Origin: Verminephrobacter eiseniae EF01-2
GTDB lineage: Bacteria > Pseudomonadota > Gammaproteobacteria > Burkholderiales > Burkholderiaceae_C
Length of the DNA: 64,000 nucleotides
Direction: 5' to 3'
Assembly: GCF_000015565.1 (NCBI RefSeq)
Contig: NC_008786.1
Span: forward strand, 2,542,001-2,606,000
Below, in pieces: positions 33,893 through 47,848 of the stretch (position 1 is the first letter of the stretch; every line of letters starts with the position of its first letter). Below the pieces are notes generated by a model. That model saw only the letters and a list, made by a program, of their open reading frames with translations, was not told the DNA's origin and ran no database searches. A program made the position numbers and the translations under genes.

Positions 33893-34567
33893 ATGGCAAA
33901 TATTCTGGTGGTCGACGATGAGCTCGGCATACGTGACCTGTTGTCGGAAATCCTGAACGACGAAGGTCACAGCGTAGACCTCGCAGAAAACGCAACCCAG
34001 GCCCGCGCCGCCCGGGCAGGCACCAGGTATGACTTGGTGCTGCTGGACATCTGGATGCCTGACACCGATGGCGTCTCGCTGCTCAAGGAATGGGCCACGG
34101 CCGGCCTGCTGACCATGCCCGTGATCATGATGAGCGGTCACGCCACCATCGACACCGCCGTGGAGGCTACGCGCATTGGCGCTTTCTCGTTCCTTGAAAA
34201 GCCGATCACCCTGCAAAAGCTGCTCAAGGCCGTCGAGCAGGGCTTGGCGCGCAATGTCGCCCACCCGGTGGCCGCAGTCCAGCCGCCCGCAGCGGAGCCG
34301 GCAACAAATCCGGGCTACGCGCCGCTGCCCGCCATGTCGGCCGTGCTCACGGGCGCCGATGCCGGCCCCCATTCACACCAGGACTTTGACCTGAACCGTC
34401 CGCTGCGTGAGGCCCGCGACGATTTCGAGAAAGCCTATTTCGAGTTTCACCTCAAGCGCGAAGGGGGCTCCATGACCCGCGTCGCCGAGAAGACCGGCCT
34501 GGAGCGCACCCACCTGTACCGCAAGCTGCGCCAGCTCGGGGTCGATCTCGGACGCAAGCGGGGTTAG
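33893..34567 (+). CDS. NtrX-like response regulator lacking the AAA+ domain
   Basis: Response regulator of 224 residues. The receiver domain has D8/D9, the phospho-acceptor D52 in LVLLDIWMPDTDG, and the conserved lysine in FLEKPITLQ. After a Pro/Ala-rich linker (about residues 125-160), the C-terminus carries a Fis-type helix-turn-helix (MTRVAEKTGLERTHLYRKLR). The sigma-54-interacting AAA+ ATPase of classical NtrX is absent, so it cannot activate sigma-54 promoters directly. It is paired with the upstream kinase. Confidence 0.9.
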   Translation: MANILVVDDELGIRDLLSEILNDEGHSVDLAENATQARAARAGTRYDLVLLDIWMPDTDGVSLLKEWATAGLLTMPVIMMSGHATIDTAVEATRIGAFSFLEKPITLQKLLKAVEQGLARNVAHPVAAVQPPAAEPATNPGYAPLPAMSAVLTGADAGPHSHQDFDLNRPLREARDDFEKAYFEFHLKREGGSMTRVAEKTGLERTHLYRKLRQLGVDLGRKRG

Positions 34568-34659
34568 CTCCGGACAGGGTGCTGGTACCGCGCCAGCGCA
34601 CACCTCCTGCCACTGGCGCACCATCGGTCGCTCGACCTGCGGGTGCCATGACCCACGGG

Positions 34660-34989
34660 TCACGGGCAATGGAACAGTTCTTCCATCTCGGCCCAGTGCT
34701 CGCCGCTTTTTCGGCTGCTCAACGGGCGCTGGCATGGCATGCAGACGGCCCACCAGCGCTGGGTCTCGGGGTCATTGGCCATGCGCTCCATGTCCTGTTC
34801 AAAATCGCTCCCGTGGTATTCGAAGTGACTGAACAACAGGTTTTCCGGCTCGCGCAGATAGATGGTGTAGTTGCGGATGTTCGAGCGCCGGATCTGCGCC
34901 AGCACCGCAGGCCACACGGCGGCATGCAGTGCTTTGTATTCCTCCAGCATCTCCGCCCGGATGCCGATCACCGCGCCATGGCGTTGCAT
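34660..34989 (-). CDS. L-rhamnose/L-fucose mutarotase family protein
   Basis: Small ferredoxin-like-fold protein of 109 residues from the RhaM-type mutarotase family (DUF718), which interconverts alpha and beta anomers of 6-deoxy sugars. Motifs include GAVIGIRAEMLEEYKALHAA, the catalytic-region SNIRNYTIYLREPENLLFSH and DFEQDMERMANDPETQRWW. It is the last gene of a minus-strand unit, 17 bases after the enolase-superfamily gene. It suggests the cluster handles a 6-deoxyhexose or related free sugar; rhamnose versus fucose cannot be decided. Confidence 0.88.
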   Translation of the reverse strand: MQRHGAVIGIRAEMLEEYKALHAAVWPAVLAQIRRSNIRNYTIYLREPENLLFSHFEYHGSDFEQDMERMANDPETQRWWAVCMPCQRPLSSRKSGEHWAEMEELFHCP

Positions 34990-35006
34990 AGGTCGTCTCC
35001 CCGTTG

Positions 35007-36116
35007 TCAGCCTGCAGGATGGACGAAGTGATCGCTGCCAAGGGCTGCTATGGCTTGCCAGTCCCATTCGATTCCCAGACCCGGCAATTCGGGCGGGATG
35101 GCATAGCCGGCCTCCATCTTGAGCCTGCTTTTGGCCACGGGGTCGAGCTGCGGGATGTGCTCTACCCAGCGCGCATTGGGCACGGCGCAGGCCAGGCTCA
35201 CATGCAGTTCCATCAAAAAATGCGGGCATACGCTGATGTTGTGGCATTGGGCAAGATGCGCCACTTTCAACCAGGGCGTGATGCCGCCAATGCGCGCCAC
35301 ATCCACTTGCACGATGTGGCAGGCCTGCGCCTGCAGATAGTCGGCAAACTGGCCCAGGCTGTACAGCGACTCGCCAACCGCAATCGGGATGGCCGAGTGC
35401 CTGCACAGGTGCCGATGGGCCATGATGCTGTCCGCCGGCATGGGCTCTTCGAGCCAGGCCAACTGCAAATGCGCCAGGGCCTGGGCCCGGCGCAGCGCTT
35501 CGCTCAAGGTCAGCGACTGGTTTGCATCCACCATTAGTTCGTACCCGGGCCCGACGGCGGCGCGGACAGCGCTCAGGCGCGCGACATCTTCGCCCACATG
35601 CGGGCGGCCGATTTTTATTTTCGAGCCGGCAAAGCCCTCTTTTTGCGCCTGCACCGCTTGTGCCACCAACTCCTGCGTGGACAGTTGCAGCCAGCCGCCC
35701 TCGGTGGTGTACAGCGGGCGTTTTGGTGCGCTGCCGCCGGCCACTTTCCACAGCGGCAACTGCAGCAGCTTGCAGCGCCGATCCCACAGTGCCGTATCGA
35801 TGGCGGCCAGTGCCAGGCTGGTAATGGCGCCGACATGGGTGGCGTGGGTGTGGAAGAGCAGATCCTGCCAGATGCTTTCGATGCAATCCGGATCCTGGCC
35901 CAGCAAGCGCGGCACCAGATGGTCACGCAGCAAGGCCATGATGGACGATCCTCCGGTGCCAATGGTGTAGCTGTAACCCACACCTTCACTCCCATCGCTG
36001 CAGCGCAGACGCAATATGGGCGTTTCCTGGCGCACGAAACTCTGGATGGCGTCGCTGCGCAGGGTCTTGGGCTCCAGCGCAATCAGATCGACCCGGACGC
36101 TTTCGATGCGGGGCAT
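35007..36116 (-). CDS. Enolase-superfamily acid-sugar dehydratase (mandelate racemase/muconate lactonizing type)
   Basis: Enzyme of 369 residues, probably an aldonic-acid dehydratase. It has the mandelate-racemase subgroup residues: the KxK base motif in GSKIKIGRP, metal ligands in MVDANQ, WLEEPMPADS and VGESLY, and a DVARIGGIT segment followed by the histidine of CPHFLMELH, giving a His-Asp dyad. Such enzymes dehydrate acid sugars to 2-keto-3-deoxy acids. The ATG at 36116 lies 2 bases after the MaoC stop. With a mutarotase downstream and a lactonase and dehydrogenase on the opposite strand, a sugar-acid route is likely. Confidence 0.88.
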   Translation of the reverse strand: MPRIESVRVDLIALEPKTLRSDAIQSFVRQETPILRLRCSDGSEGVGYSYTIGTGGSSIMALLRDHLVPRLLGQDPDCIESIWQDLLFHTHATHVGAITSLALAAIDTALWDRRCKLLQLPLWKVAGGSAPKRPLYTTEGGWLQLSTQELVAQAVQAQKEGFAGSKIKIGRPHVGEDVARLSAVRAAVGPGYELMVDANQSLTLSEALRRAQALAHLQLAWLEEPMPADSIMAHRHLCRHSAIPIAVGESLYSLGQFADYLQAQACHIVQVDVARIGGITPWLKVAHLAQCHNISVCPHFLMELHVSLACAVPNARWVEHIPQLDPVAKSRLKMEAGYAIPPELPGLGIEWDWQAIAALGSDHFVHPAG

Positions 36117-36118
36117 GG

Positions 36119-36565
36119 TCAGTGCTTTCTTTGTTGAACGAGATGGATGTGCTCGCATGCCAGAACCACCTCGTCGCGCTGATTGAGCACCTCGGTCAGT
36201 TCCCAAACGCGCCCCTGGTCCGGGCGCTTGGGGTCCGGCTCTTTCCTGGCCACGGTCAATCGCGTCCGGATGGTATCACCTATGAACACTGGTTTTATGA
36301 ATCGAAGTCGATCGTATCCGTAGCTGAAGGCGACCGGGTTGATCCGGGATGCCGTCAGCCCAACGCCCAGCGCAAAAACCATCGTGCCATGCGCAATGCG
36401 CTGCCCGAAAGCCTGGGTTTTCATGAACTCGGCATCCATGTGGTGAGGAAAAAAATCCCCCGTGTGGCCGGCGTGGATGACAAAGTCGGTTTCGGTGATG
36501 GTTCTGCCGGCAGTGACCCTGCTGCTGCCAATGCAGTAGTCCTCGAAGAATTTTTCTTCATTCAT
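36119..36565 (-). CDS. MaoC-like dehydratase (hot-dog fold), first copy
   Basis: Protein of 148 residues with the hydratase-2 motif region ([20 protein letters not shown], then [15 protein letters not shown]). MaoC proteins hydrate enoyl-CoA substrates. It is the first gene of the minus-strand unit MaoC-dehydratase-mutarotase and is divergent from the signal-less binding-protein gene across an 83-base spacer. A second MaoC gene lies at 39062-39565 in the plus-strand unit. The two may form a heteromer or act on successive substrates; this is inference. Confidence 0.86.
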
Positions 36566-36648
36566 CGCGTTTCCCAGGGTTTGTACTGAGTCGATGGTGC
36601 TGCTTCCGTACCGATAATTTCATCAGCAAAAGATGGTTTCATGCATAG
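36566..36648. promoter_or_regulatory. Divergent promoter region of the sugar/CoA catabolic cluster
   Basis: This 83-base spacer separates the start of the minus-strand MaoC gene from the plus-strand binding-protein-like gene and must carry the promoters for both units. It is more AT-rich than its surroundings (CCGATAATTTCATCAGCAAA). No confident -35/-10 pair or palindromic operator was assigned. The IclR-type regulator at the end of the plus-strand unit is the natural candidate to bind here. Confidence 0.4.
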
Positions 36649-37899
36649 GTGTTTATACCGAGTCAGCGACCAAGCCGACGACCCCATCGACCATTGCTCG
36701 GGAGCCATGAATTGGATGCATCGGTATTACTCAAAGGTGTGACCTGGGGGCATTCCCGTGGGCTGGTTCCCATGGTGGCAACGGGGCAGCGCTTCTCGGA
36801 ACTGAACCCCCATGTGCAGTTGCGCTGGGAAGTCCGGTCATTGCAGGCTTTTGCGGATCAGCCCATCGATGTGCTGGCGCGGCAATACGACCTGCTGGTG
36901 TTGGACCATCCGTCCATCGGCGAGGCGCAAGCCCATGGTCTGCTGGTTCCGCTCGATGGGTATTTGCCGGCCGATTTTCTTGCCGACCAAGCGCGCAACA
37001 GCGTGGGCAGGTCGCACCAGAGCTATCAGTTGGAGGGGCATCAATGGGCATTGGCAACAGACGCCGCCACCCCGGTATCGGCGGCCCGGCCGGATGTCTT
37101 GCAGCGGCATGGCATGCAGTTGCCGCAGTCATGGGATGAGATGCTGGAGCTCGCGCGCGCCGGCTTGGTGGCCTTGGCGGGCCTGCCGCTCGATGGCCTG
37201 ATGCATTTTTATACCCTCTGCATTTCCGAGGGGGATGAGCCTTTTTGCCACGCAGCCCATTTGGTGGAGCAGGAGGCGGGTGTCAATGCGCTGATGGCGC
37301 TCAAGGAACTGGTCGACGCCTGCGGTGGCGCGTGCTTGGACAGGAATCCGATTGCCGTTTACGAGTTGCTGACCCGCAGCGAACGCCATGCCTACAGTCC
37401 GTTCGCCTACGGTTATTCCAACTACGCCAGAGACAGTTATGTCGACCGCCCATTGCAATTTGGCGGTCTCGTGACGCGCCATGGCAAACGCTTTACTTCC
37501 ACCCTGGGCGGTGCCGGCTTGGCCGTGTCAGCGCACAGCCAGCAGCGTGAATGGGCGGTGCGTTATGCCGGGTTCGTGGCCAGCGCGCCGGTGCAATCGG
37601 GGCTTTATGTCGAAAATGGCGGCCAACCCGGGCACAGGAGCGCTTGGCTGGATGCGCACAACAACCAACTGACGAACGATTTTTTTGTCAACACACTGCC
37701 AACATTGGAGCAGGCCTATGTGCGTCCCCGCTATAGCGGATATATCCGATTTCAGGAACAGGCCCCCGATATTCTCAGGCGCTTTCTCGGCGGGGCACAA
37801 ACTGCGCTGAAAACCATGCAGGAATTGAACGCACTGGATGCGCAATGGCGCCGCGGGCGCATCAATGAACGCCTGCATCTGCATGGGGCCATGGCATGA
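36649..37899 (+). CDS. Solute-binding-protein-like protein without signal peptide
   Basis: Protein of 416 residues with the overall character of family-1 ABC solute-binding proteins ([60 protein letters not shown]). The N-terminus is Arg/Pro-rich ([20 protein letters not shown]) with no hydrophobic core or cleavage site, so it should stay in the cytoplasm. GTG 36649 is the proposed start; the first conserved residues are near position 26, so a shorter start is possible but would also lack a signal. It overlaps the CaiB/BaiF CoA-transferase gene by 4 bases. I infer an intracellular ligand-binding, sensing or enzyme-partner role; the function is not established. Confidence 0.72.
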
Positions 37900-39059
37900 G
37901 TACGCCAGCGGATCATTTGCCGCTGGCAGGGTTGCTGGTTTTGGATTTCAGTCAATTCCTGGCAGGACCGAGTGCGACCCTGCGCATGGCCGACATGGGG
38001 GCCACCGTGATCAAGGTGGAGCGGCCCGTCACGGGCGATCTGTGCCGGCAGCTTTATATATCCGATCTGGAAATCGATGGCGACAGCACGCTTTTTCATA
38101 CCATCAATCGAAACAAGCGTTCTTATGCGGCAGATCTGAAAAATCCCGAAGATTTGGCAAAGGTGCGCCGCCTGATCGGCAAGGCCGACCTGATGATCGA
38201 GAATTTTCGCCCCGGCGTGATGGAGCGCATCGGCCTGTCTTACGCGGAAGTGCGCACGCTGAATCCGCGCATCATCTATGGCAGCGTTACCGGCTATGGC
38301 CGCACAGGCCCATGGATCGATCTTCCCGGACAGGACTTGCTTGCGCAAAGCCGAAGCGGGGTGGTGTGGCTCAACGGCGATGCGGATCAAGGGCCGGTTC
38401 CGGTGGGGTTGGCACTGGCAGACATTCTCACAGGGGCGCATCTGGTGCAAGGACTGCTCGGGGCACTGGTGCGCCGGGGCATTCACGGTCGAGGCGCCCG
38501 GGTGGAGGTGAGCCTGCTGGAGTCTGTGCTGGATTTTCAGTTTGAGGTATTGACCACCTATCTCAATGACGGCGCCAGACCACCGAAACGGTCTGCCGTG
38601 AACAATGCCCATGCGTACCTGGGTGCGCCATACGGTATTTACGCCACGGCGGATGGCTATTTGTCGCTGGCAATGGGCCCGATTGCAACGCTGGCCAAGG
38701 CGCTCGATTGCGCTGCGCTGCAACCGTATCTGGATCGCAATTGCTGGTTCACCCGGCGTGACGCCATCAAGGATATTCTCGGCAAGCACCTCAAGACGCA
38801 GGCGACGCAATACTGGCTGGACAGACTGATTCCGGTGGACTACTGGTGTGCGCCGGTCATGACCTGGGCCGAATTGCTCGAGCATGACGGGTTCAAGACC
38901 CTGGGCTTTTTGCAGGATGTGGTGCGCGGTAATGGTGCGCGCGTGCGAACCACGAGTTGTCCGATCCGCTTTGACGGTATACGGCCGCAGGCTGCGCGTG
39001 CCGCGCCAAAGGTCGCAGAGGATAACGCCTGGGTGGAAGCCAACTACCTTGCCGACTGA
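37896..39059 (+). CDS. CaiB/BaiF family CoA-transferase
   Basis: Class III CoA-transferase of 387 residues, which moves CoA between carboxylates through aspartyl-CoA chemistry. Family hallmarks are [64 protein letters not shown] and the catalytic aspartate in PGQDLLAQ. The ATG overlaps the preceding stop (ATGA at 37896-37899), and the MaoC gene starts 2 bases after its stop. Translational coupling of the three genes suggests one pathway or complex producing and hydrating a CoA thioester. Confidence 0.9.
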
Positions 39060-39061
39060 CG

Positions 39062-39565
39062 ATGAACCGACCACACAACACGCCCCGTGACCTACACCAG
39101 CAGATACGGATCTGGAACGCCGAAGACTGGTATTGGGAAGATATCGTTCCCGGTACGAAAATCCGTTCCATCCGGCGGACCATTTCCGAGGGCGAAAGCA
39201 TGCAATTCAATGCGCTGGTTCTGGACATGCATCCTTATGTGGCAGACGAGCCTTTTGCCAGCAAGGAAGGCATGTTTGGCAAACGGCTGGTGGCAGGGGC
39301 ATTCGTATTCAGTGCCGGCCTGGGGCTGGTGGCGACGAATTGCAAGAACGCCTTCAGCTATGGCTATGACCGATTGCGCTTCATTGCCCCGGTGTTCATT
39401 GGCGACACCATTTACACCATCAAGACGGACATGAGCAAAGCGCCCAAGAACGAAACACTGGGTCTGTACCGCGCAAGCTATGAAGTATTCAAAAACGATG
39501 CCGAACTGGTGCTGTATTGCGAGCACCTGCAGACCGTCAAACTGCGCCAACACTCGAATACTTGA
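39062..39565 (+). CDS. MaoC-like dehydratase, second copy
   Basis: Hot-dog-fold protein of 167 residues. The segment [20 protein letters not shown], followed by [14 protein letters not shown], aligns with the MaoC hydratase region of the 148-residue copy on the opposite strand. Both share the later [11 protein letters not shown](A/K)PVFIGDTI stretch, so they are clear paralogues. It starts 2 bases after the CoA-transferase gene. A hydratase or dehydratase acting on a CoA ester made by that enzyme is the likely role. Confidence 0.86.
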
Positions 39566-39602
39566 ATATTTGAGTACGTAGCCGCCGCACCAGGAAAATG
39601 CC

Positions 39603-40478
39603 ATGCGCCCATGGATTGACACCCATTTGCATCTGCTTTATCCGCAGCGCCTGGACTACGACTGGACAAAGTCGTTGCCGGTGCTCGATCGCGCCCATGT
39701 TCTGGAGGAATATGCCGGCTTGGCACAGCCGTCAGGCATTCGTCTGGCCTTGCATATGGAGGCCGATGTCCGGGCGCAGCAGATGGAAGCGGAAACCGAC
39801 CTGATCGGCCAACTGGCCCGGCAACCAGACAGCCTCATTGCCGGGGCGATTTCATCGTGCCGACCGGAGCACGATGAGATCGGCGGCTTTCTGGAACGGG
39901 CCTTGTCCAATCCGCTGATTCATGGTTTCAGGCGTGTATTGCATGTCGTTCCCGATGAACTATCCACGAGCGCCACCTTTCGCCGCAATGTGCGTGCATT
40001 GACTGGCCAGGGCCACCCTTTCGACCTGTGCGTTCTGCCGGGGCAGTTCCACCTGGCGGACGCGCTGGCAAAAGCCTGCCCTGAATCACAAATGGTATTG
40101 GATCACTGTGGCGTGCCTGCGGTGGCGAGTCAGGCATTGGATCCCTGGAAAGAGGGTATTGCGCGGTTGGCCGCGAATCCGAACATGGCGTGCAAGATTT
40201 CGGGCCTGATTGCTTATGGCGATGCCAGTCGCTGGCCTGACGGGGATGTGGCCAGTGTGGTGCGCGATGTGCGCCCATATTTTGAGCATGTGGTGGATCG
40301 TTTCGGTTGGGGCAGATTGGTCTGGGGAAGTGATTACCCGGTATGCAACCTGACCCGCGACCTTCCCACCTGGAAAGCCGTCACCGACCAGCTTGTCGCC
40401 GGGTGTAGCGACAGTGAGATAGATGCACTGGCATATGGCAATGCACGCCGCATTTACCGTCTCACCGATACCTGCTGA
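39603..40478 (+). CDS. Amidohydrolase-2 family hydrolase (sugar lactonase-like)
   Basis: TIM-barrel metal-dependent hydrolase of 291 residues. Metal and active-site motifs are the N-terminal WIDTHLHLLYP, the histidine in LDHCGVPA and the terminal aspartate in WGSDYPVCN. The family (COG3618-type) includes L-fucono- and L-rhamnono-lactonases and 2-pyrone-4,6-dicarboxylate lactonase. Placed beside a Gfo/Idh/MocA dehydrogenase, an enolase-superfamily dehydratase and a mutarotase, it is best read as opening a sugar lactone. The exact substrate is inference. Confidence 0.87.
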   Translation: MRPWIDTHLHLLYPQRLDYDWTKSLPVLDRAHVLEEYAGLAQPSGIRLALHMEADVRAQQMEAETDLIGQLARQPDSLIAGAISSCRPEHDEIGGFLERALSNPLIHGFRRVLHVVPDELSTSATFRRNVRALTGQGHPFDLCVLPGQFHLADALAKACPESQMVLDHCGVPAVASQALDPWKEGIARLAANPNMACKISGLIAYGDASRWPDGDVASVVRDVRPYFEHVVDRFGWGRLVWGSDYPVCNLTRDLPTWKAVTDQLVAGCSDSEIDALAYGNARRIYRLTDTC

Positions 40479-40496
40479 CATCCTGTGAATCCCGCC

Positions 40497-41558
40497 ATGA
40501 CCGACATTCAGTCCTTGCAGCAAGAATGGCCATTGCCATCGAGGCCCCGTCCCGTCGTAATCATCGGTGCCGGCGGAATCGTCAATGACGCGCATCTGCC
40601 GGCTTATAAAAAGGCCGGATTTTTTGTCCAGGGTGTGTATGACCTGGATACTGAGCGGGCCAAGGGCACGGCCGCCCAATGGGGCATAGGCCGGGTCTAC
40701 GAAACTCTGGAGCAAGCGGTCTCCGAAACCGGCGTGGTGTTTGATCTGGCATTGCCACCGTCAGCCGTGATGGGAGTGCTCGATGCATTGCCTGATGGAG
40801 CGGTGGTGCTGATCCAGAAGCCGATGGGCAAAGATCTGGCGCAGGCGCGTGCAATAGTGGCTGTATGTCAGCGCAAAAAATTGCTGGCCGCCATCAACCA
40901 TCAATTGCGCTTTGCTCCTTATATGCTGGCCGTGCGCGACGCCATCGGGCGCGGTTGCCTGGGCAGCGTCAGTGACGTTGAAATGCAATTGAACGTTGCC
41001 GACCCCTGGCATTTGTTCCCATTTCTGGAAACGATGGAGCGGGTGGAAATACAGGTTCACTCCATTCACTATCTGGATCTCATACGCTCTTTGCTTGGCG
41101 ACCCTGTAGGCGTGTATGCACTGACCATCGCTGATGCACGCTACCCCCGGCTCAAAAGCACCCGGTCGTCGATCATTCTCAATTACGGCAGCAAAACGCG
41201 CGTCTGCCTCTCACTCAATCACAACTATGCCCATGGAGAAAAGGGGCAATCGGCGATGTTCAAGTTCGAGGGCACGGATGGTGTGATATGGGTGCAGTTG
41301 GGCGTGATGCTGGACTATCCCGAAGGGCGTCCGGATACGGTGCAAGTGAAGCTGCGCGGCCAGGATTGGAAAAACCTGGCGCTCACAGGAAGCTGGTTTC
41401 CCGATGCATTCATCGGCCCGATGAGCAATCTGCAGCGATTTTCCTCGGGAGAGGATCCGGCCCTGCTGACGAATGTGCACGATGTTTTGCGCACCATGGT
41501 CTTGGTCGAGGCTGCATATGTTTCGAGCGCCTCCGGCGGCACGCCGTTGTGCGCATGA
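40497..41558 (+). CDS. Gfo/Idh/MocA family oxidoreductase
   Basis: NAD(P)-dependent dehydrogenase of 353 residues from the ATG. The Rossmann motif is VVIIGAGGIVNDAHLPAYKK. The catalytic lysine lies in VLIQKPMGKDL, where the common EKP motif reads QKP, and the C-terminal alpha/beta domain carries the substrate-side HSIHYLDLIRSLLGDP. Members oxidise or reduce sugars and inositols. A GTG at 40485 is an alternative start. The gene lies between the lactonase-like gene and the sugar importer genes, fitting oxidation of the imported sugar to a lactone. Confidence 0.87.
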   Translation: MTDIQSLQQEWPLPSRPRPVVIIGAGGIVNDAHLPAYKKAGFFVQGVYDLDTERAKGTAAQWGIGRVYETLEQAVSETGVVFDLALPPSAVMGVLDALPDGAVVLIQKPMGKDLAQARAIVAVCQRKKLLAAINHQLRFAPYMLAVRDAIGRGCLGSVSDVEMQLNVADPWHLFPFLETMERVEIQVHSIHYLDLIRSLLGDPVGVYALTIADARYPRLKSTRSSIILNYGSKTRVCLSLNHNYAHGEKGQSAMFKFEGTDGVIWVQLGVMLDYPEGRPDTVQVKLRGQDWKNLALTGSWFPDAFIGPMSNLQRFSSGEDPALLTNVHDVLRTMVLVEAAYVSSASGGTPLCA

Positions 41559-41575
41559 ACTTAGGAGACATTCAC

Positions 41576-42922
41576 ATGAAGTCAGAAAATCATCGGCAAT
41601 GGTCTGCCACGGCCCGCACAGCGATTGCGCTGGGTGCATGGCTGCTTGCCGCAGTGGCCGGCACCGGTGTTCAGGCGCAAGAGTTCAAAGGTTATACGCT
41701 GAAAGTAAAGCTGATCGGTGGCACACAGTATGAGCCGCTGTACGCCATCATCCCGGAATGGGAAAAGAAAACCGGTGCCAGGGTCGAAATCCTGTCACGC
41801 AAAAACCACTTCGAATTGGACAAGGAGATCAAGCAGGACATTGCTGCCCGCAAGATCGACTACTGTGTGGCATCAAACCATACCAGTTTCTCACCACAAT
41901 ATGGTGATATCTATCGTGATCTGCAAAAAGCATTGCCTGCCACCTGGGTGAGTCAATTCGGGAAACTGGTCCTTGAGCATTCCACCGTGGCTGGTTCCCT
42001 GGTGCTGTTGCCACGCCATTCCGATGTCAGCGAACTGTATTACAATAAAAAATTCTATGACAACACCGAAAACAAGGCCGCCTACAAAACCAGATTTGGC
42101 AAAGAGTTACTGGTTCCCGATACCTGGACAGAATTTGCACGGCAGGCAAAGTTCTTCAGCAAGCCGCCCTCGGTCTATGGCACCCAGTTCCCCGGCAAGG
42201 ATGAGGCCATTACCGGGCGTTTCTATGAAATGCTCGTCGCAGAAGGCGGTGCGTTGTTCGACAAGGACTGGCGCCCGACATTCAATTCTGCGGTGGGTGA
42301 GCGTGCCCTGAATTTCTTTGTCGACCTTTACAAGTCCGGAGCCGTGCCCAAGGGTGTGCCCAACTATATTTGGGACGACCTGGGCCAGGGTTTTGCCAGC
42401 GGCAATATCGCGCTGAATCTGGATTGGGGTGGTTGGGCCGGCTTTTTCAACGACCCCAAAAACTCCAGGATCGCCGGCAACGTTGGCATTGCGCGTGCAC
42501 CCAGGGGTTCTTCGGGAAAACGCACCGGTTGGGCCGGGTCACATGGTTTTTCCATTACCAAGGCTTGTGATAATCCAAAGGCCGCAGCCAGTTTGGTCAT
42601 GGCCCTGACAAGTCTGGAGGCCCAGATGATCGAGGCGCGCAATGGCATGATGCCAACCCGCATGGATGCACAAAAGCAGGCCGCAGGGGAATTTGCAAAA
42701 AAGGGCGACAAGTACATGCTGGAAGTATTTCAGACCTTTGCCAAAGGCATGGCCGAGGATGCATTTACACCACCGCTGATCCCGGAGTGGATCGAAGCCT
42801 CCAACGCCATTTGGCCTGAGTTGCAAAAAGCGCTGATCGGCGAGAAAACCGGCAAGCAGGCGCTGGATGACGCAGCCAACAAAGTATTGGCGATCATGCA
42901 GGATGCCGGTCGGGTGAGATAG
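41576..42922 (+). CDS. Carbohydrate-type ABC transporter substrate-binding protein
   Basis: Periplasmic family-1 solute-binding protein of 448 residues. The signal peptide (about residues 1-34, TAIALGAWLLAAVAGTGVQA) precedes the mature start QEFKGYTLKVKLIGGT. Typical segments are YEPLYAIIPEWEKKTGARVE, LPRHSDVSELYYNKKFYDN and IALNLDWGGWAGFFNDP. AGGAGA lies 8 bases before the ATG. It leads an importer set with two MalF/MalG-type permeases. Unlike the binding-protein-like gene at 36649, this one is clearly exported, so the cluster has both an exported and a cytoplasmic version of the fold. Confidence 0.9.
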   Translation: MKSENHRQWSATARTAIALGAWLLAAVAGTGVQAQEFKGYTLKVKLIGGTQYEPLYAIIPEWEKKTGARVEILSRKNHFELDKEIKQDIAARKIDYCVASNHTSFSPQYGDIYRDLQKALPATWVSQFGKLVLEHSTVAGSLVLLPRHSDVSELYYNKKFYDNTENKAAYKTRFGKELLVPDTWTEFARQAKFFSKPPSVYGTQFPGKDEAITGRFYEMLVAEGGALFDKDWRPTFNSAVGERALNFFVDLYKSGAVPKGVPNYIWDDLGQGFASGNIALNLDWGGWAGFFNDPKNSRIAGNVGIARAPRGSSGKRTGWAGSHGFSITKACDNPKAAASLVMALTSLEAQMIEARNGMMPTRMDAQKQAAGEFAKKGDKYMLEVFQTFAKGMAEDAFTPPLIPEWIEASNAIWPELQKALIGEKTGKQALDDAANKVLAIMQDAGRVR

Positions 42923-42940
42923 CTGGCCAAACGGTCTTTC

Positions 42941-43819
42941 ATGCGCCGCTCCTGGCCTTACCTGTTGCTGCTGCCGGCATTGCTGATCGTGGCGCTGGTG
43001 GTGTTGCTGCCGTTGGTCTTTTCACTGTATTCGAGCTTTACTGCATACCGACTGACGCGGCCGGACTCGATCACCCGTTTCATCGGATTTGCGAATTATG
43101 TCCGCCTGTTTCAGGACATGGATTTCTGGTGGGCCTTCGGGCGGACCATCCTGTTTTTGACGATCGTCCTGAATGCGGAGTTGTCGTTGGGCTTGGGGCT
43201 GGCATTGCTATTGGAGCAGGTGACGCGCGGGCAACGCCTGCTGCGGACGATCCTGATGTTCCCGATGATGTTTTCGCCCATTTTGGTCGGTTTTCAATTC
43301 AAATTCATGTTCAACGACAACATTGGCATCGTCAATTACATTCTGCAGCACGGCTTCGGGATGCAGGAGTCCGTGCCGTGGCTGGTGGATGGCCGGCTGG
43401 CTTTGTTTGCGCTGGCCGTGGCTGAAATCTGGAACTCTACTTCCGTTTTTGCCATCCTGTTGTTGGCCGGTTTGATGTCCATGCCCTCGGACCCGATCGA
43501 GGCGGCAAAGGTTGACGGGTGTAGCGCATGGCAGGCATTCCGGCATGTCACGCTGCCTTATCTGATGCCTTTTGTCTGGATCGCCATGACGATCCGCTCG
43601 CTGGAGGTGGGGCGGGCCTTTGACATTGTAAAAATAATGACCAATGGAGGGCCTGGCGGACGCACGGAGCTGATCTGGACGCTGATGGCCCGCACCGGTT
43701 ACGTGGATGGAAGAATGGGTCTGGCAAATGCCATGGGATATATCTCGATCATTCTTTCCATGGCGTTTACGGTGCATTTCTTTGCAAAGTTGTCGGCCGC
43801 ACGCCGGCATGTGTATTGA
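42941..43819 (+). CDS. ABC transporter permease (MalF-like)
   Basis: Inner-membrane permease of 292 residues with six predicted membrane segments, the first being YLLLLPALLIVALVVLLPLV. The coupling motif is DPIEAAKVDGCSAWQAFRHV (EAA loop). It lies 18 bases after the binding-protein gene and 25 bases before its partner permease. These binding-protein-dependent sugar permeases form a heterodimer that needs two ATPase subunits. Confidence 0.9.
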   Translation: MRRSWPYLLLLPALLIVALVVLLPLVFSLYSSFTAYRLTRPDSITRFIGFANYVRLFQDMDFWWAFGRTILFLTIVLNAELSLGLGLALLLEQVTRGQRLLRTILMFPMMFSPILVGFQFKFMFNDNIGIVNYILQHGFGMQESVPWLVDGRLALFALAVAEIWNSTSVFAILLLAGLMSMPSDPIEAAKVDGCSAWQAFRHVTLPYLMPFVWIAMTIRSLEVGRAFDIVKIMTNGGPGGRTELIWTLMARTGYVDGRMGLANAMGYISIILSMAFTVHFFAKLSAARRHVY

Positions 43820-43844
43820 GCGCAGGGTTCGCGCAGGTTGCCAT

Positions 43845-44687
43845 ATGAGAAAAAACGTACGCCAGGCCCTGTTGTGGCTATGCATTTTTCTGGCCATGGG
43901 TTTTATTTGCATGCCGGGCCTGTGGGTGGTGCTGAATGCCTTCCGACCGAATGTTGCCATTCTCGGCAATGAAAATCCGTTGAACTTTTCCAGCTATACA
44001 CTGGACAATTTCCGGAACATTCTGGGCCTTGGCGGGATTCAGCCTCTGCCGGTATTGGCCTATTTTCGTAACTCCATGATCATCTCCATGACGAGCACGG
44101 TAATGGCGCTCGTCGTCGGTCTGGCTGGTGGTTACGCATTTGCGCGTTTTCATTTCCGCGGCAAGAATGCGATGTTTGTCGGATTGATGCTGACGCGCGC
44201 CATTCCGGGGGTGGCCTTGTCCTTGCCGATATTCATCATATGGTCCTGGCTGGGGTTGCTCGATACCATGCCGGGTGTCATCATGGTGTATTTGGCGATG
44301 AATGTCCCGTTTACCATCTGGCTGTTGGATGGATTTTTGCGCCAGGTGCCGCAGGAATTGTCCCAGGCAGCCCGAATCGATGGTTGCACGGCTTGGCAGG
44401 CTTTCTGGAAAGTGGAATTTCCGTTGGCGCGCGGGGGAATCGCCGCTGCGGGTATCTTTGCCTTTCTGACCAGTTGGAACGAGTTTGCGCTGGCTTCACA
44501 GCTGACCAGGTCGCCGGACACCAAGACCATGCCCGTGGCTTTGATGGATTTCACGGCGCAATTTACCATCGATTGGGCCGGCATGTGCGCCATGGCGGTG
44601 CTGATCATCATTCCCGCACTGCTGCTGACGTTTCTGGTGCAAAAGCACCTGATTGCCGGGCTGACGCTGGGCGGCGTCAAAGGCTGA
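43845..44687 (+). CDS. ABC transporter permease (MalG-like)
   Basis: Second inner-membrane permease of the importer, 280 residues. TM1 is ALLWLCIFLAMGFICMPGLW, and the EAA coupling loop reads SQAARIDGCTAWQAFWKVEF. The C-terminus ends in LVQKHLIAGLTLGGVKG, a common ending in MalG-type subunits. ATG 43845 was chosen as the conserved start. No ATP-binding protein gene follows; the next gene is the IclR regulator. Confidence 0.9.
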   Translation: MRKNVRQALLWLCIFLAMGFICMPGLWVVLNAFRPNVAILGNENPLNFSSYTLDNFRNILGLGGIQPLPVLAYFRNSMIISMTSTVMALVVGLAGGYAFARFHFRGKNAMFVGLMLTRAIPGVALSLPIFIIWSWLGLLDTMPGVIMVYLAMNVPFTIWLLDGFLRQVPQELSQAARIDGCTAWQAFWKVEFPLARGGIAAAGIFAFLTSWNEFALASQLTRSPDTKTMPVALMDFTAQFTIDWAGMCAMAVLIIIPALLLTFLVQKHLIAGLTLGGVKG

Positions 44688-44704
44688 CATTGCGGTGCTG
44701 CCTC

Positions 44705-45571
44705 ATGAAACCAACGACTGCGGTACCCAAAAAAAGCGCCAAACCCGCTGCACAGAAGGCTGCTGCGCAAAAGGCTGCTGTGCCTCTGGCTGCCAGTGCC
44801 AAACGGCCACAGTATGCGGCCCCGGCATTGGAAAAGGGTATCGATATCCTGGAACTGCTCACCGATGCAGAGCATGGTTTGGGCATGGCGGAAATTGCGC
44901 AGAAGTTGCACCGCAGCGTTGGCGAGATATTCCGGATGGTGGTTACGCTGCAGCGCCGCAACTGGCTGTATGCGGATCGCGCTGATTGCTATCACTTGAC
45001 GACGCGGATGTTTGAATTGGCCCACAGGAACCGGCCCATTCGTACTTTGGTGGAGGCAGCATTGCCCAGCATGCAACTGGTTGCCAAGCAGGCATTGCAA
45101 TCGTGCCATCTTGCCGTGTTTGAAGCGGGCCGGATATTGGTCATTGCGCAGGTTCAAGCGCCGGGGCCGCTGTCTTTCGGGGTGCGCACCGGCTCTGTGG
45201 TCGGTATGTTCAATACCGCTTCCGGCCAGGTGATGCTGGCGTTCCGTTCGCCGCAAGAAAGGGAACGTCTGTTGGAGCAAAACGCCATTTTGACCGGTGA
45301 GCCCGGTGTTTTGCGTGGAGAGGCATTGGCGGGCGTCGATAAAGTCGCCGCTGACGGGTTTGCCTGCTCTCCCAGCCAGCAATTGCGCGGGGTGACGAAT
45401 CTTGGCTGTCCTGTATGGGGGAGCGATGGCCAGGTGGTTGCAGCGGTCGTCATCCCCTTCGTAGAGCGGTTGGACGTTTACCGTGGCCCGACTTTGGAGG
45501 AAACGCTGCTGATTTTGAAAAATGCCGCTGTGGATATTTCCAAGGCTTTGGGGCAACCCGGGGGGTCGTGA
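44705..45571 (+). CDS. IclR family transcriptional regulator
   Basis: Regulator of 288 residues. An Ala/Lys-rich N-terminal tail (about residues 1-35) precedes the winged helix-turn-helix (LGMAEIAQKLHRSVGEIFRM) and the IclR effector-binding domain (about residues 110-280, with FNTASGQVMLAFRSPQERER and LRGVTNLGCPVWG). It ends the plus-strand unit, 17 bases after the permease gene. IclR proteins usually control neighbouring catabolic genes, so the 36566-36648 divergent region is the probable target. Confidence 0.9.
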   Translation: MKPTTAVPKKSAKPAAQKAAAQKAAVPLAASAKRPQYAAPALEKGIDILELLTDAEHGLGMAEIAQKLHRSVGEIFRMVVTLQRRNWLYADRADCYHLTTRMFELAHRNRPIRTLVEAALPSMQLVAKQALQSCHLAVFEAGRILVIAQVQAPGPLSFGVRTGSVVGMFNTASGQVMLAFRSPQERERLLEQNAILTGEPGVLRGEALAGVDKVAADGFACSPSQQLRGVTNLGCPVWGSDGQVVAAVVIPFVERLDVYRGPTLEETLLILKNAAVDISKALGQPGGS

Positions 45572-45606: not shown

Positions 45607-46437
45607 CTACATGGCCTTGAACAGGTGGGCGTAGAGGCGGCTGACGGGGAGCTTTTCGGGGCGACCGGTCAATTCCAGGTGCAGCTTGCCGGCTTCGTCG
45701 CGCGTCACGGTGGTGATGGCGTCGGCACGCACCAGGGTGCTGCGGTGGATCTGCCAGAACACCCGCTGATCGAGCTGGGCGATCAGTTCCTTGAGCGGGG
45801 TGCGGATCAGGAATTCGCGCGCCGCCGTGAGCACGCGCACGTACTTGTCTGCGGCCTCGAAATACAGCACCTCGGCCACGGGCACCATATGGACGCGGTT
45901 GCCGCTGCTGGCCGGAATCAGCGTCAGCGCTGCGCCGGAAGATGCGCTGCTGCCCGGCACGACACCCGGCGCTGCCAGCAGATGGCGCAGTTGCGCCATG
46001 GTGGCCTCCAAATCAATAGCGTAAGGCGCGTGATTGGCGAGCGCCTGCTGTAGTTTTTGCACTGTTTTTTGCAGCCGCGCCGGCTGTATTGGCTTGAGCA
46101 GGTAGTCGATGGCCTGCGCTTCAAAAGCCTGCACGGCGTACTGGTCGTAGGCCGTCACGAACACCAGCGCCGGAAACGGGCGCGCGGACGGGCCTGTGCC
46201 GGGCCAGTCCTCGGCCAGTTCCACGGCGGCGTCGAGCCCGCTTTGGCCGGGCATGCGGATGTCGAAGAACAGCAACTCGGGTTGCAATGCCAGCGCCTGG
46301 CGCACGGCCGACAGCCCATCGCCCACGGTGGCGACGATTTGCAACCCGGGCCAGGCGCGGCTGAGCTCTTGCTGCAACGCGGCGGCCAGCAGGGGCTCGT
46401 CTTCGGCAATCAATGCGCGCGGGGCGGGCTGGTTCAT
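45607..46437 (-). CDS. LytTR-type response regulator
   Basis: Response regulator of 276 residues. The receiver domain has acidic residues in ALIAEDEPL, phospho-acceptor D59 in LLFFDIRMPGQSG and the lysine in IDYLLKPIQP. The LytTR DNA-binding domain occupies about residues 175-276 (NRVHMVPVAEVLYFEAADKY, FWQIHRSTLVRADAI). It overlaps the kinase gene by 4 bases. The protein resembles AlgR/LytR regulators, which control surface or polysaccharide functions; the regulon here is unknown. Confidence 0.9.
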   Translation of the reverse strand: MNQPAPRALIAEDEPLLAAALQQELSRAWPGLQIVATVGDGLSAVRQALALQPELLFFDIRMPGQSGLDAAVELAEDWPGTGPSARPFPALVFVTAYDQYAVQAFEAQAIDYLLKPIQPARLQKTVQKLQQALANHAPYAIDLEATMAQLRHLLAAPGVVPGSSASSGAALTLIPASSGNRVHMVPVAEVLYFEAADKYVRVLTAAREFLIRTPLKELIAQLDQRVFWQIHRSTLVRADAITTVTRDEAGKLHLELTGRPEKLPVSRLYAHLFKAM

Positions 46438-47525
46438 GGCGCTGGCCGCAGCGGAAAAGTGACGCAGGCGCAGGTTCCACCTGCGCTGGGGGTTTGCACA
46501 TCGAGGGTGCCTGCGCTGCCGTGCAGGCTGGCCAGGCGTTCGCGCACCTGGCTCAGGCCAAAGCGTTGGCCGGGGGGCGGGGCGGGGGGCAGGCCGGCGC
46601 CGGTGTCATGGACTTCGATGACCAGCAGCGGGCCGTGGGCGCCAGGGCGGGTGCCGGCGCGCACGCTGATGCGGCCACCGGCGACCTGGGGCTCCAGGCC
46701 GTGGCGGATGGCATTTTCCACCAGGGGTTGCAGCAGCAGGGTCGGCACGGGCACGGCGCGCAGGGCCTCGGGCAGGGTGAGGGTGTAGGCCATGCGCGGG
46801 CCCATGCGCATGGCCATCAGTTCCAGATAGTCGCGCAGGCGCTCGAACTCGGTGGCCAGCGGGTGCTCGGTGCTGCGCGATGCGCTGAGTGTGGCGCGCA
46901 GGTAGTCGATCATGCGGTCGATCATCTGCTGCGCGCGCGCCGGGTCGGTGCCGATCAACATGCGCAGGTTGGCCAGCGTGTTGAACAGCATGTGCGGCTC
47001 CAGTTGCGTTTGCAGCAGCCGGAGTTGCGCCTCGGCGGCTTGGCCGCGCGCCTCGTCCATTCTGGCGTGCAGCCTGGTGTGTTTGCTGCCGCTGTAGAAG
47101 AAATAGATGACGGCAAAGCTTGCCAGCAGCGTGATGCCGATGGAGATGCGCAACTGTGCCCCGCCGCCCGGCGCCCAGGATGAAAATCCGCACCACCAGG
47201 CGGCCAGCAAGTTGCCCCCCAGGTAGCCCAGGATGATGCCCAGCGCCGGCAAGACCAATCCGGGGATGCCGGCGGGCCAGCCCGTGTCGGGGTTGGGCCG
47301 AAAGAGGTGGCGCCCGAAGTCGATCAGCGCCCAGCACAGCGTGCCGATGGCCAGCGAGTAGCGCAAGGGGATGTCGTAAGGCCAATCGGGCTGGAACGCG
47401 CACTGTATGGCCGCGATGACTAGGCAAAAGGCCATGGTCCGCAGCAGGTTGCGCAGTTTGTCGAGCCAGTCGATGGGCGTGGCGCGGCGCCAGGCCCCAT
47501 CGCGGTCATGCAAAGCAGCGCTCAT
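46434..47525 (-). CDS. LytS/AlgZ-type sensor histidine kinase
   Basis: Membrane kinase of 363 residues. About four hydrophobic segments fill residues 20-150 (for example LRTMAFCLVIAAIQCAF and GIPGLVLPALGIILGYLGGN). The His_kinase (PF06580-type) phospho-acceptor region is LLQTQLEPHMLFNTLANLRM, and the ATPase domain has PTLLLQPLVENAIRHGLEPQ and PPGQRFGLSQVRERLASLHG. ATG 47525 overlaps the stop of the upstream 2TM gene, and its own stop overlaps the regulator start, making a tightly coupled three-gene unit. Confidence 0.9.
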   Translation of the reverse strand: MSAALHDRDGAWRRATPIDWLDKLRNLLRTMAFCLVIAAIQCAFQPDWPYDIPLRYSLAIGTLCWALIDFGRHLFRPNPDTGWPAGIPGLVLPALGIILGYLGGNLLAAWWCGFSSWAPGGGAQLRISIGITLLASFAVIYFFYSGSKHTRLHARMDEARGQAAEAQLRLLQTQLEPHMLFNTLANLRMLIGTDPARAQQMIDRMIDYLRATLSASRSTEHPLATEFERLRDYLELMAMRMGPRMAYTLTLPEALRAVPVPTLLLQPLVENAIRHGLEPQVAGGRISVRAGTRPGAHGPLLVIEVHDTGAGLPPAPPPGQRFGLSQVRERLASLHGSAGTLDVQTPSAGGTCACVTFPLRPAP

Positions 47526-47848
47526 CGCACTTGGCGCCGCAGGCGCTCGCGCTCCTTTTGCACCATGCGCTCGCGCAGGCCGCTGGCGGGGCCGCACATA
47601 AAGACCGCGATGCCGTGCAGCGCCAGACCGAGGCCCCAGCCGAGCAGCGGAAAGACCGTCCAGTGTCGGCTGCCAAAACCGTGGTGCGAGATGGCAAAGA
47701 GCGCCAGATTGATCACGACGAACGCTGTCGCATGGATGTACCAGCCCAGTTTTGCGCCAGCACGCCGGCGGGCCAGTCGGTCGATATCTTTGGGTGTCAT
47801 GGGTTGGGTTTCGGGTGTCATGGGTTGGTCAAGAGGGTGGGGTGTCAT
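47522..47848 (-). CDS. 2TM domain-containing protein
   Basis: Small membrane protein of up to 108 residues with two hydrophobic helices (WYIHATAFVVINLALFAIS and VFPLLGWGLGLALHGIAVFM) and a basic C-terminal tail (VQKERERLRRQVR), as in the 2TM family often found beside LytTR systems. The start is uncertain: three in-frame ATGs (47848, 47821, 47800) each sit in a copy of a tandem repeat that encodes QPMTP. The last gives the most conserved-looking start (MTPKDIDRLARRR). It is coupled to the kinase gene by an ATGA overlap. Confidence 0.75.
   Translation of the reverse strand: MTPHPLDQPMTPETQPMTPKDIDRLARRRAGAKLGWYIHATAFVVINLALFAISHHGFGSRHWTVFPLLGWGLGLALHGIAVFMCGPASGLRERMVQKERERLRRQVR

Follow-up and report, generated by a model that had tools for sequence, protein, structure and literature searches.

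A candidate CoA-dependent deoxy-sugar pathway encoded with a solute-binding-protein fold that lacks a visible signal peptide

The window, a 64,000-nucleotide stretch of Verminephrobacter eiseniae EF01-2 DNA, carries a 12-gene cluster at positions 34660-45571. We confirmed its families and coordinates, and profiles matched every family named in a sequence-only reading of this DNA (mutarotase, Gfo, lactonase, enolase, importer, CaiB, two MaoC and IclR). The features are as follows.

34660..34989, minus strand: rhaM, RhaM/YiiL-type L-rhamnose mutarotase family, 109 aa (PF05336, 109.3 bits)
35007..36116, minus strand: eno, enolase-superfamily (MR/MLE) acid-sugar dehydratase-like protein, 369 aa (MR_MLE_C, 228 bits)
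36119..36565, minus strand: maoC1, MaoC-type hydratase 1, 148 aa (PF01575, 83.7 bits; 4ffu, 233 bits)
36566..36711: intergenic region between the divergent minus- and plus-strand genes
36712..37899, plus strand: cSBP, solute-binding-protein (SBP) fold, 395 aa, probable TTG start (SBP_bac_1, 33.6 bits)
37896..39059, plus strand: caiB, CaiB/BaiF class III CoA-transferase, 387 aa (PF02515, 318 bits)
39062..39565, plus strand: maoC2, MaoC-type hydratase 2, 167 aa (PF01575, 48.1 bits)
39603..40478, plus strand: COG3618-type amidohydrolase, sugar-lactonase-like, 291 aa (PF04909, Amidohydro_2, 149 bits)
40485..41558, plus strand: gfo, Gfo/Idh/MocA dehydrogenase, 357 aa (PF01408, 36 bits)
41576..42922, plus strand: ABC sugar SBP with an N-terminal signal segment, 448 aa (PF01547, 72.8 bits)
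42941..43819, plus strand: ABC permease A, 292 aa (PF00528, 54.7 bits)
43845..44687, plus strand: ABC permease B, 280 aa (PF00528, 86.3 bits)
44705..45571, plus strand: IclR-family regulator, 288 aa (PF01614, IclR_C, 68.2 bits; PF09339, 41.2 bits)

Three genes, maoC1 (one of the two MaoC genes, 36119-36565), eno and rhaM, are encoded on the minus strand. Overlaps of 4 or 2 bases had been described between the CoA genes; cSBP and caiB do share 4 bases, but gaps of 2 bases lie between caiB and maoC2 and between maoC1 and eno. A search for operators in 36530-36740 turned up nothing beyond short inverted repeats, none of them seen in common with loci L002 or L005. At L005, all 12 genes occur in the same order as in the window. 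Because of this, and because the core recurs widely, the gene set is not a chance juxtaposition. The neighbours beyond the cluster, at 45607-47597, encode a LytTR regulator and a histidine kinase and have no relation to the pathway.

The ABC importer proper occupies 41576-44687 and consists of the exported SBP, whose signal segment has a hydropathy of 2.3, and two permeases. The sugar-type importer of the earlier reading is present to this extent but lacks its ATPase: profile matches placed no ABC ATPase gene within 34660-45571, and none follows permease B. In L005, a homologue of the ATPase of L014 sits between gfo and sbp. The window's genome has 12 OB_MalK matches elsewhere, the best at 59% to the L005 ATPase. 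At the Bacteroidota cSBP loci, the ABC permeases of the window found no match.

Non-phosphorylative pathways for L-fucose and L-rhamnose use a dehydrogenase, a lactonase and an enolase-superfamily dehydratase. The window resembles them in having mutarotase-family, dehydrogenase, lactonase-like and enolase-superfamily genes, and differs in adding CaiB, two MaoC proteins and a cytosolic SBP-fold protein. Its proteins also fall below the NCBIfam cut-offs for the classical enzymes. RhaM scores 45 bits with the L-rhamnose mutarotase model TIGR02625 (cut-off 99.6). The lactonase-like protein, which we take to be of the COG3618 type, reaches 112 bits with the L-fucono-1,5-lactonase model NF052480 (cut-off 400) and 64 bits with 4dlf. 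The best specific models for the Gfo dehydrogenase are far below cut-off, although the family itself is matched. Eno carries the residues that are presumably catalytic (KxK at 166/168, D197, E223, E249, D272, H299 and E319), but it does not score as an L-fuconate or L-rhamnonate dehydratase: the L-rhamnonate dehydratase model gives 95 bits against a cut-off of 393, and the L-fuconate dehydratase structure 116 bits. Its nearest solved relatives by sequence are 3,6-anhydro-L-galactonate cycloisomerase (5xd7, 236 bits) and then L-talarate/galactarate dehydratase (2pp0, 216 bits); the latter activity also provides its best equivalog model, at 283 bits against a cut-off of 500. Neither a keto-deoxy acid aldolase nor a dehydrogenase plus hydrolase was found among the 12 cluster genes, and eight HpcH/HpaI-family matches lie elsewhere in the V. 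eiseniae genome.

Catalytic-position residues of the CoA genes are conserved. Asp176 of CaiB, which we take to be the catalytic Asp of a class III CoA-transferase, is conserved in 113/113 aligned sequences. The presumed catalytic residues of the hydratases are D37/H42 in MaoC1 (55/55) and D55/H57 in MaoC2 (17/17), whose motif differs from that of MaoC1. The CaiB module thus comprises a class III CoA-transferase with its Asp and a hydratase with its catalytic-position residues. The best-scoring models are those of oxalate, glutarate, formyl and mesaconate CoA-transferases for CaiB and that of PaaZ for MaoC1, all below cut-off; MaoC1 scores 54.5 bits with the RipB/Ich model (cut-off 340). Pairs of a CoA-transferase and a hydratase are known from carnitine (CaiB/CaiD) and itaconate (Ict/Ich-type) metabolism. 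As in those systems, a class III CoA-transferase is found here with a MaoC protein or a crotonase, and the catalytic-position residues are conserved. Unlike in those systems, the genes alongside encode a sugar dehydrogenase, sugar transporters and glycosidases, and the 12 window genes include no CitE-type lyase.

The sequence-only reading had proposed looking for linked CoA and sugar genes in other genomes, and the linkage holds there. We counted it at the 62 cSBP loci with more than 6 kb of sequence on both sides: caiB is present at 58 and gfo at 45, in several phyla. An enoyl-CoA hydratase, either MaoC or an unrelated crotonase, accompanies caiB at 56 of those 58. At eight loci, all with an aldehyde dehydrogenase (ALDH) gene and all without gfo, crotonase stands in for MaoC, so the locus keeps a CoA-ester hydratase through a non-homologous substitute. 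CoA-transferases are also concentrated at these loci: eight of 12 genomes have just two class III enzymes, both of them at the cSBP locus, and of the 27 CaiB matches in the 12 genomes, 23 fall at cSBP loci. Seven genomes have a cSBP locus without a caiB match. Four of them (G010, G413, G415 and G411) have a related CaiB elsewhere, which in G010 lies within a maoC1-gfo-SBP2-caiB-caiB array; the other three (G412, G414 and G416) carry cSBP, yet a genome search found no match to window-type CaiB. Some cSBP loci lie next to RuBisCO-like and DUF1537-type kinase genes.

Some sugar genes of the window are less constant. Eno lies within 7 kb of cSBP at only 10 of the 62 loci and a lactonase at 13, the latter by a loose model built from a 19-protein cluster (10 of them best-matching the window lactonase) whose Hymenobacter hits look spurious; by tblastn, 8 of 80 loci have a lactonase at 170 bits or more. 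Enolase and lactonase are accessory. RhaM was found near the core at 3 of 80 loci, one of them weak, and at L137; being this rare, the mutarotase is not core. Most cSBP loci, in contrast to the non-phosphorylative routes, drop eno and the lactonase and keep the CoA genes, and gfo, caiB and a hydratase persist at loci that lack these two. The extreme is a set of 22 loci with two caiB, maoC1, gfo and a second signal-less SBP-fold protein (SBP2), but no eno, lactonase, maoC2, ALDH or crotonase. SBP2 occurs at 41 of the 62 loci. It is alone at 35, the lactonase is alone at 7, both are present at 6 and neither at 14; we set this anticorrelation aside as weak, and the lactonase model is loose.

Neighbouring genes point to the sugar. 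Each of the 22 minimal loci with two caiB carries a permease, of FucP type at 16 and of RhaT type at 6. Models built in this analysis place fucP-like genes near 21 of the 62 loci, RhaT near 12 and GH29 near 7; the FucP of L022 is above cut-off (372.8 versus 280.4 bits). GH78 and GH106-like genes also occur, and the neighbours include fucosidase and rhamnosidase genes. These neighbours point to L-fucose, L-rhamnose or L-galactose. Because loci differ in their sugar context (fucose, rhamnose, agar), a single substrate may not suit every one of them. No RhaA was detected in any of 13 genomes, a point in favour of the pathway proposed below; fucose-isomerase C-domain matches were present in 7 of the 13, six of them over cut-off and none in the window's genome, and other fucose routes are thus possible in those genomes.

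We propose, with a probability of about one half, that the whole cluster serves to break down one sugar, a 6-deoxy-L-hexose or a sugar of the L-galactose type, with CoA-dependent dehydration of the aldonate; an L-fucose or L-rhamnose type is the most likely substrate. The ABC system, with an ATPase encoded elsewhere, would import the sugar. RhaM would mutarotate it, Gfo oxidise it to the lactone and the COG3618 protein open the lactone to the aldonate. CaiB would then load CoA onto the sugar acid, and for this step cSBP would hold the acid, or the lactone, in the cytoplasm. MaoC1 or MaoC2, or crotonase elsewhere, would eliminate water from the 3-hydroxyacyl-CoA by beta-elimination, leaving the 2-keto-3-deoxy form. 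CaiB would move the CoA on to another molecule of sugar acid, making CoA catalytic as in carnitine CaiB/CaiD. In some lineages the enolase homologue may serve as an accessory dehydratase or epimerase, and the IclR-family protein may regulate the unit. An enolase-type dehydratase in the same cluster counts against this proposal, since a second dehydratase would be redundant here. So do the lack of a route for a keto-deoxy acid in the cluster, the fucose-isomerase matches, the mixed sugar context, the three cSBP genomes with no CaiB match, the absence of loop enrichment in cSBP and the near-host GC3 of rhaM and eno (the last two described below).

The sequence-only reading placed the reactions in another order, with the enolase making a 2-keto-3-deoxy acid and CaiB and MaoC acting downstream on that or a derived acid as a CoA thioester. 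Its broader idea, that sugar oxidation and CoA chemistry form one pathway, is strongly supported by the conserved linkage. The order itself is doubtful. Eno, the lactonase-like gene and gfo do co-occur in the window, L005, L007, L014 and L075 (the L075 lactonase being weak, 26% identity), and a keto-deoxy acid needs a downstream route in a cluster without an aldolase. But 2-keto acids are unusual CoA-transferase substrates. The low counts of eno and lactonase, and the persistence of the other genes without them, make a CoA step on the enolase product less likely, as the CoA genes are independent of eno. More likely, the CoA step acts on the aldonate and replaces, or precedes, enolase-type dehydration.

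Alternatively, two routes for one glycoside may be bundled, with the CoA genes serving an acid other than the sugar skeleton, such as a substituent (acyl or methyl-branched) or a fragment of C3/C4 size that the sugar releases. The hints are indirect: the sub-cut-off models that fit CaiB and MaoC1 best, and the RuBisCO-like and kinase genes beside some loci. We consider this unlikely, because the 22 minimal FucP/RhaT loci leave no separate skeleton route among the enzymes modelled.

The proposed aldonate pathway gives a place to cSBP, the cluster's oddest gene, which was overlooked in the first reading. It lies between the divergent intergenic region and caiB and has an SBP fold, but no visible signal peptide, and at the Bacteroidota loci no permease match was found. 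This sets it apart from SBP_bac_1 proteins of ABC importers (MalE3, 6dtq; SmoF, 7yzs), as does its usual neighbour, caiB. By eye, a visible signal segment is absent in 21/21 aligned homologues, and by hydropathy 78 of 80 loci have no strongly hydrophobic start. At 53 of 60 loci the first recognised gene to follow cSBP is caiB, and cSBP overlaps or closely abuts it at many loci. Even the distant cSBP of L093/L094 (37-38% identity) adjoins caiB, together with gfo and MaoC or crotonase. In 52 sequences, 78 positions keep the window residue in at least 98%, and mean identity over 52 loci is 0.58, against 0.56 for gfo; such conservation looks like purifying selection. All of this makes it very improbable that cSBP is a functionless remnant that lost its signal peptide in an otherwise ordinary gene mix.

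By gene neighbourhood, cSBP is the usual partner of CaiB. We predict that it is CaiB's substrate-holding partner, or an enzyme. Identity matrices of cSBP correlate with those of caiB, gfo, maoC1 and SBP2 (r 0.74-0.86, caiB lowest), which fits joint inheritance and singles out no one partner. Loops hold 12 of the 37 invariant polar residues, no enrichment over the 34% of all residues that lie there, and we therefore do not claim a proven active cleft. PMC7683729 describes cyclohexadienyl dehydratase as an enzyme evolved from an arginine SBP, so an SBP fold can become a dehydratase; cSBP differs in being of the sugar-SBP type, and its enzyme role is putative. A bolder version of the proposal is tentative: a widespread undescribed route in which the sugar acid loses water as its CoA thioester, CaiB recycles the CoA, and one or two SBPs that shifted to the cytoplasm are now essential, as lactone-opening or dehydrating enzymes or as the substrate-capturing subunit of the CoA-transferase. 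Genes of the cSBP type are currently annotated as transporter parts.

The literature searched, whose scope left out most subscription papers, held no description of the cluster; the available parts of PMC12977620 and PMC9676036 do not concern it. Fucose and rhamnose are major deoxy-sugars of algal, plant and host glycans. If true, a conserved CoA-dependent deoxy-sugar route would fill an annotation gap in Bacteroidota, Acidobacteria, Chloroflexi and other degraders, and the signal-less SBP families would add a new case in which binding proteins have been put to use in the metabolism of the cytoplasm. The idea is testable in the hosts whose only two class III CoA-transferases sit at the locus. 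The window copy was probably acquired horizontally. The unit may be composite, since the GC3 values of rhaM (80) and eno (77) are near that of the host, unlike those of the other ten cluster genes (63-73).

The cluster at 34660-45571 consists of 12 genes on two divergent strands, and every gene family assigned to it by the sequence-only reading was correct. The minus-strand genes, and the first plus-strand gene, which encodes a solute-binding-protein (SBP) fold without a visible signal peptide (cSBP), are as follows.

36119-36565, minus, maoC1 (hydratase)
35007-36116, minus, enolase-superfamily gene (eno)
34660-34989, minus, rhaM (mutarotase family)
36712-37899, plus, cSBP

The plus strand then continues with caiB (class III CoA-transferase), the hydratase gene maoC2, a lactonase-type amidohydrolase, gfo (dehydrogenase), an exported SBP, two permeases, and iclR. 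Of the overlaps claimed for the CoA genes, the one of 4 bases is real but lies between cSBP and caiB, while those of 2 bases are in fact 2-base gaps (caiB-maoC2 and maoC1-eno). No ABC ATPase gene lies within 34660-45571. In locus L005, a homologue of the ATPase of locus L014 sits between gfo and sbp, and elsewhere in the window genome there are 12 MalK-type candidates, the top one 59% identical to the L005 ATPase.

We then asked how the relatives of cSBP are surrounded. Genome contigs were scanned for these relatives, and the best 80 of at least 479 were retained; this set spans beta- and gammaproteobacteria, Bacteroidota, Acidobacteria, Chloroflexi, Paenibacillus, Opitutaceae, Trueperaceae, and Fodinibius. 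Since these loci were picked by cSBP similarity, the counts describe the close family. Genes were scored up to 7 kb from cSBP in the 62 loci with more than 6 kb on both sides, using gene models built from the surveyed loci themselves and named partly from window proteins. Linkage of CoA genes to sugar genes in other genomes had been set as a test beforehand, and it was found: caiB is present in 58 of 62 loci (at least two copies in 39) and gfo in 45, which supports the joint sugar/CoA reading. Also nearby are a second SBP-type family, SBP2 (47), maoC1 (44), iclR (33), fucP (21), a lactonase (13, by a loose model), RhaT (12), ALDH (12), maoC2 (11), eno (10), crotonase (10), GH29 (7), and rhaM (2). 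In 53 of the 60 loci having a recognized plus-strand gene after cSBP, the next one is caiB, at 10 bases or less in 38 of the 53 (counted by eye). A hydratase accompanies caiB in 56 of 58 loci; the exceptions are L018 and L059, where the 7-kb range contains no hydratase, and in L059 crotonase and ALDH lie farther away. Scored for maoC1 and crotonase alone, 42 loci have maoC1 without crotonase, 8 crotonase without maoC1, 2 both, and 10 neither. All eight crotonase loci without maoC1 lack gfo and contain ALDH. In L028 (17586-20890), a RuBisCO-like protein, a DUF1537-type kinase (SBD_N/NBD_C), and an Asp/Glu-racemase-family gene come shortly after the core; each of these protein clusters occurs in 8 of 80 loci, including Acidobacteria, Mucilaginibacter, and Paenibacillus.

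CaiB and a hydratase are common to the Gfo-type and the ALDH/crotonase-type loci. Gfo and the lactonase would convert a sugar to a lactone and then an aldonate, and in crotonase-type loci ALDH would take the place of Gfo and reach the acid directly. The simplest common chemistry would be conversion of the sugar acid to a CoA thioester, beta-elimination, and return of the CoA, with CaiB and the hydratase carrying out the dehydration. Carnitine metabolism follows the same scheme. The Asp at the CaiB catalytic position is kept in 113/113 sequences, and MaoC1 D37/H42 in 55/55. The union of sugar and CoA chemistry proposed by the sequence-only reading is supported, but its placement of the CoA step, downstream of a keto-deoxy acid made by the enolase, was revised. 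That order is the less likely one, although the enolase homologue in the window cluster leaves room for it: 22 loci combine two caiB copies with maoC1, cytosolic SBP2, and gfo, and maoC2, lactonase, eno, ALDH, and crotonase are all missing from them. All 22 have a permease, FucP type in 16 and RhaT type in 6. The role of cSBP may be to hand the acid to CaiB, or it may itself be an enzyme; cyclohexadienyl dehydratase (PMC7683729) is a precedent for an SBP turned enzyme. The system is a new form of sugar-acid catabolism with a putative cytoplasmic binding-protein component.

SBP2-type proteins fall into two groups by maximum 12-residue mean hydropathy: 50 have no hydrophobic start (1.68 or less) and 6 are exported (1.87 or more). 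All six exported proteins are in loci with ABC permeases, which also occur near three of the 50 (L011, L045, and L072). Cytosolic SBP2, present in 41/62 loci, has the same SBP fold (MalE3 match, E 9e-29) and invariant His/Asp positions. Of the two SBP2 kinds, the window cluster has just the exported one.

With 34 CaiB-family matches in the window genome, some of them pieces, linkage in that genome alone says little. In 12 genomes, however, 23 of 27 class III CoA-transferase matches are at cSBP loci: both of the only two in eight genomes, 3/3 in a Paenibacillus genome with two cSBP loci (L048 and L069), 2/3 in two genomes, and 0/2 in G010, whose CaiB pair lies about 50 kb from cSBP inside a maoC1-gfo-SBP2-caiB-caiB core. 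Seven loci (L023, L026, L029, L033, L051, L063, and L065; some are short contigs) have no caiB match; in four of the genomes concerned a close CaiB lies at another place (fragments in G411), and the other three gave no match. A CaiB like that of the window was not found in the metagenome-assembled Opitutaceae genomes of L026 and L065, so cSBP may function without CaiB. In both, a lactonase-like gene directly follows cSBP (L026, 4007-6074; L065, 9884-12019).

L022 has a FucP that scores over its cut-off, L015 has RhaT and an alpha-L-fucosidase, and L074 has sulfatase and agarase-type genes; locus neighbors also include GH78 proteins of rhamnosidase type and GH106-like ones. Together these point to substrates of the L-fucose, L-rhamnose, or L-galactose type. 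RhaA was absent in all 13 genomes searched, but a fucose-isomerase C-domain matched in 7 (above cut-off in 6; the window genome had no match), so an isomerase route is excluded only partly.

The cluster was probably gained at a variable site. Ten of its genes have a GC3 of 63-73%, against 80-88% for six flanking or nearby genes. No convincing cSBP match was found in 15 same-genus genomes (one marginal, 26% identity). A close ntrX is present in 14 same-genus stretches, and in all six of them that were inspected tRNA-Phe follows it, then differing genes, among them a phage-type integrase in L132. In the window, where no tRNA-Phe was found, the cluster comes straight after ntrX (34567-34660). With near-host GC3, eno (77%) and rhaM (80%), at 34660-36116, may have a separate history, which would make the cluster one of mixed origin. 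Immediately past it (45607-47597) lie a LytTR response regulator and a histidine kinase, a pair not found within 7.8 kb after ntrX in the six same-genus genomes.

Among 399 sampled genomes of the same order, a close cSBP occurs in the window genome alone. Relatives of 37-38% identity are found in two others, both adjoining caiB; L093 adds Gfo-family, MaoC, and lactonase-like genes and L094 adds gfo and crotonase. Five more genomes have marginal hits (E 3e-4 to 9e-4). The window genome also has another cSBP-like stretch, interrupted by in-frame stops and convergent with a nearby caiB-crotonase pair (L092, 8694-9993 and 12282-14280).
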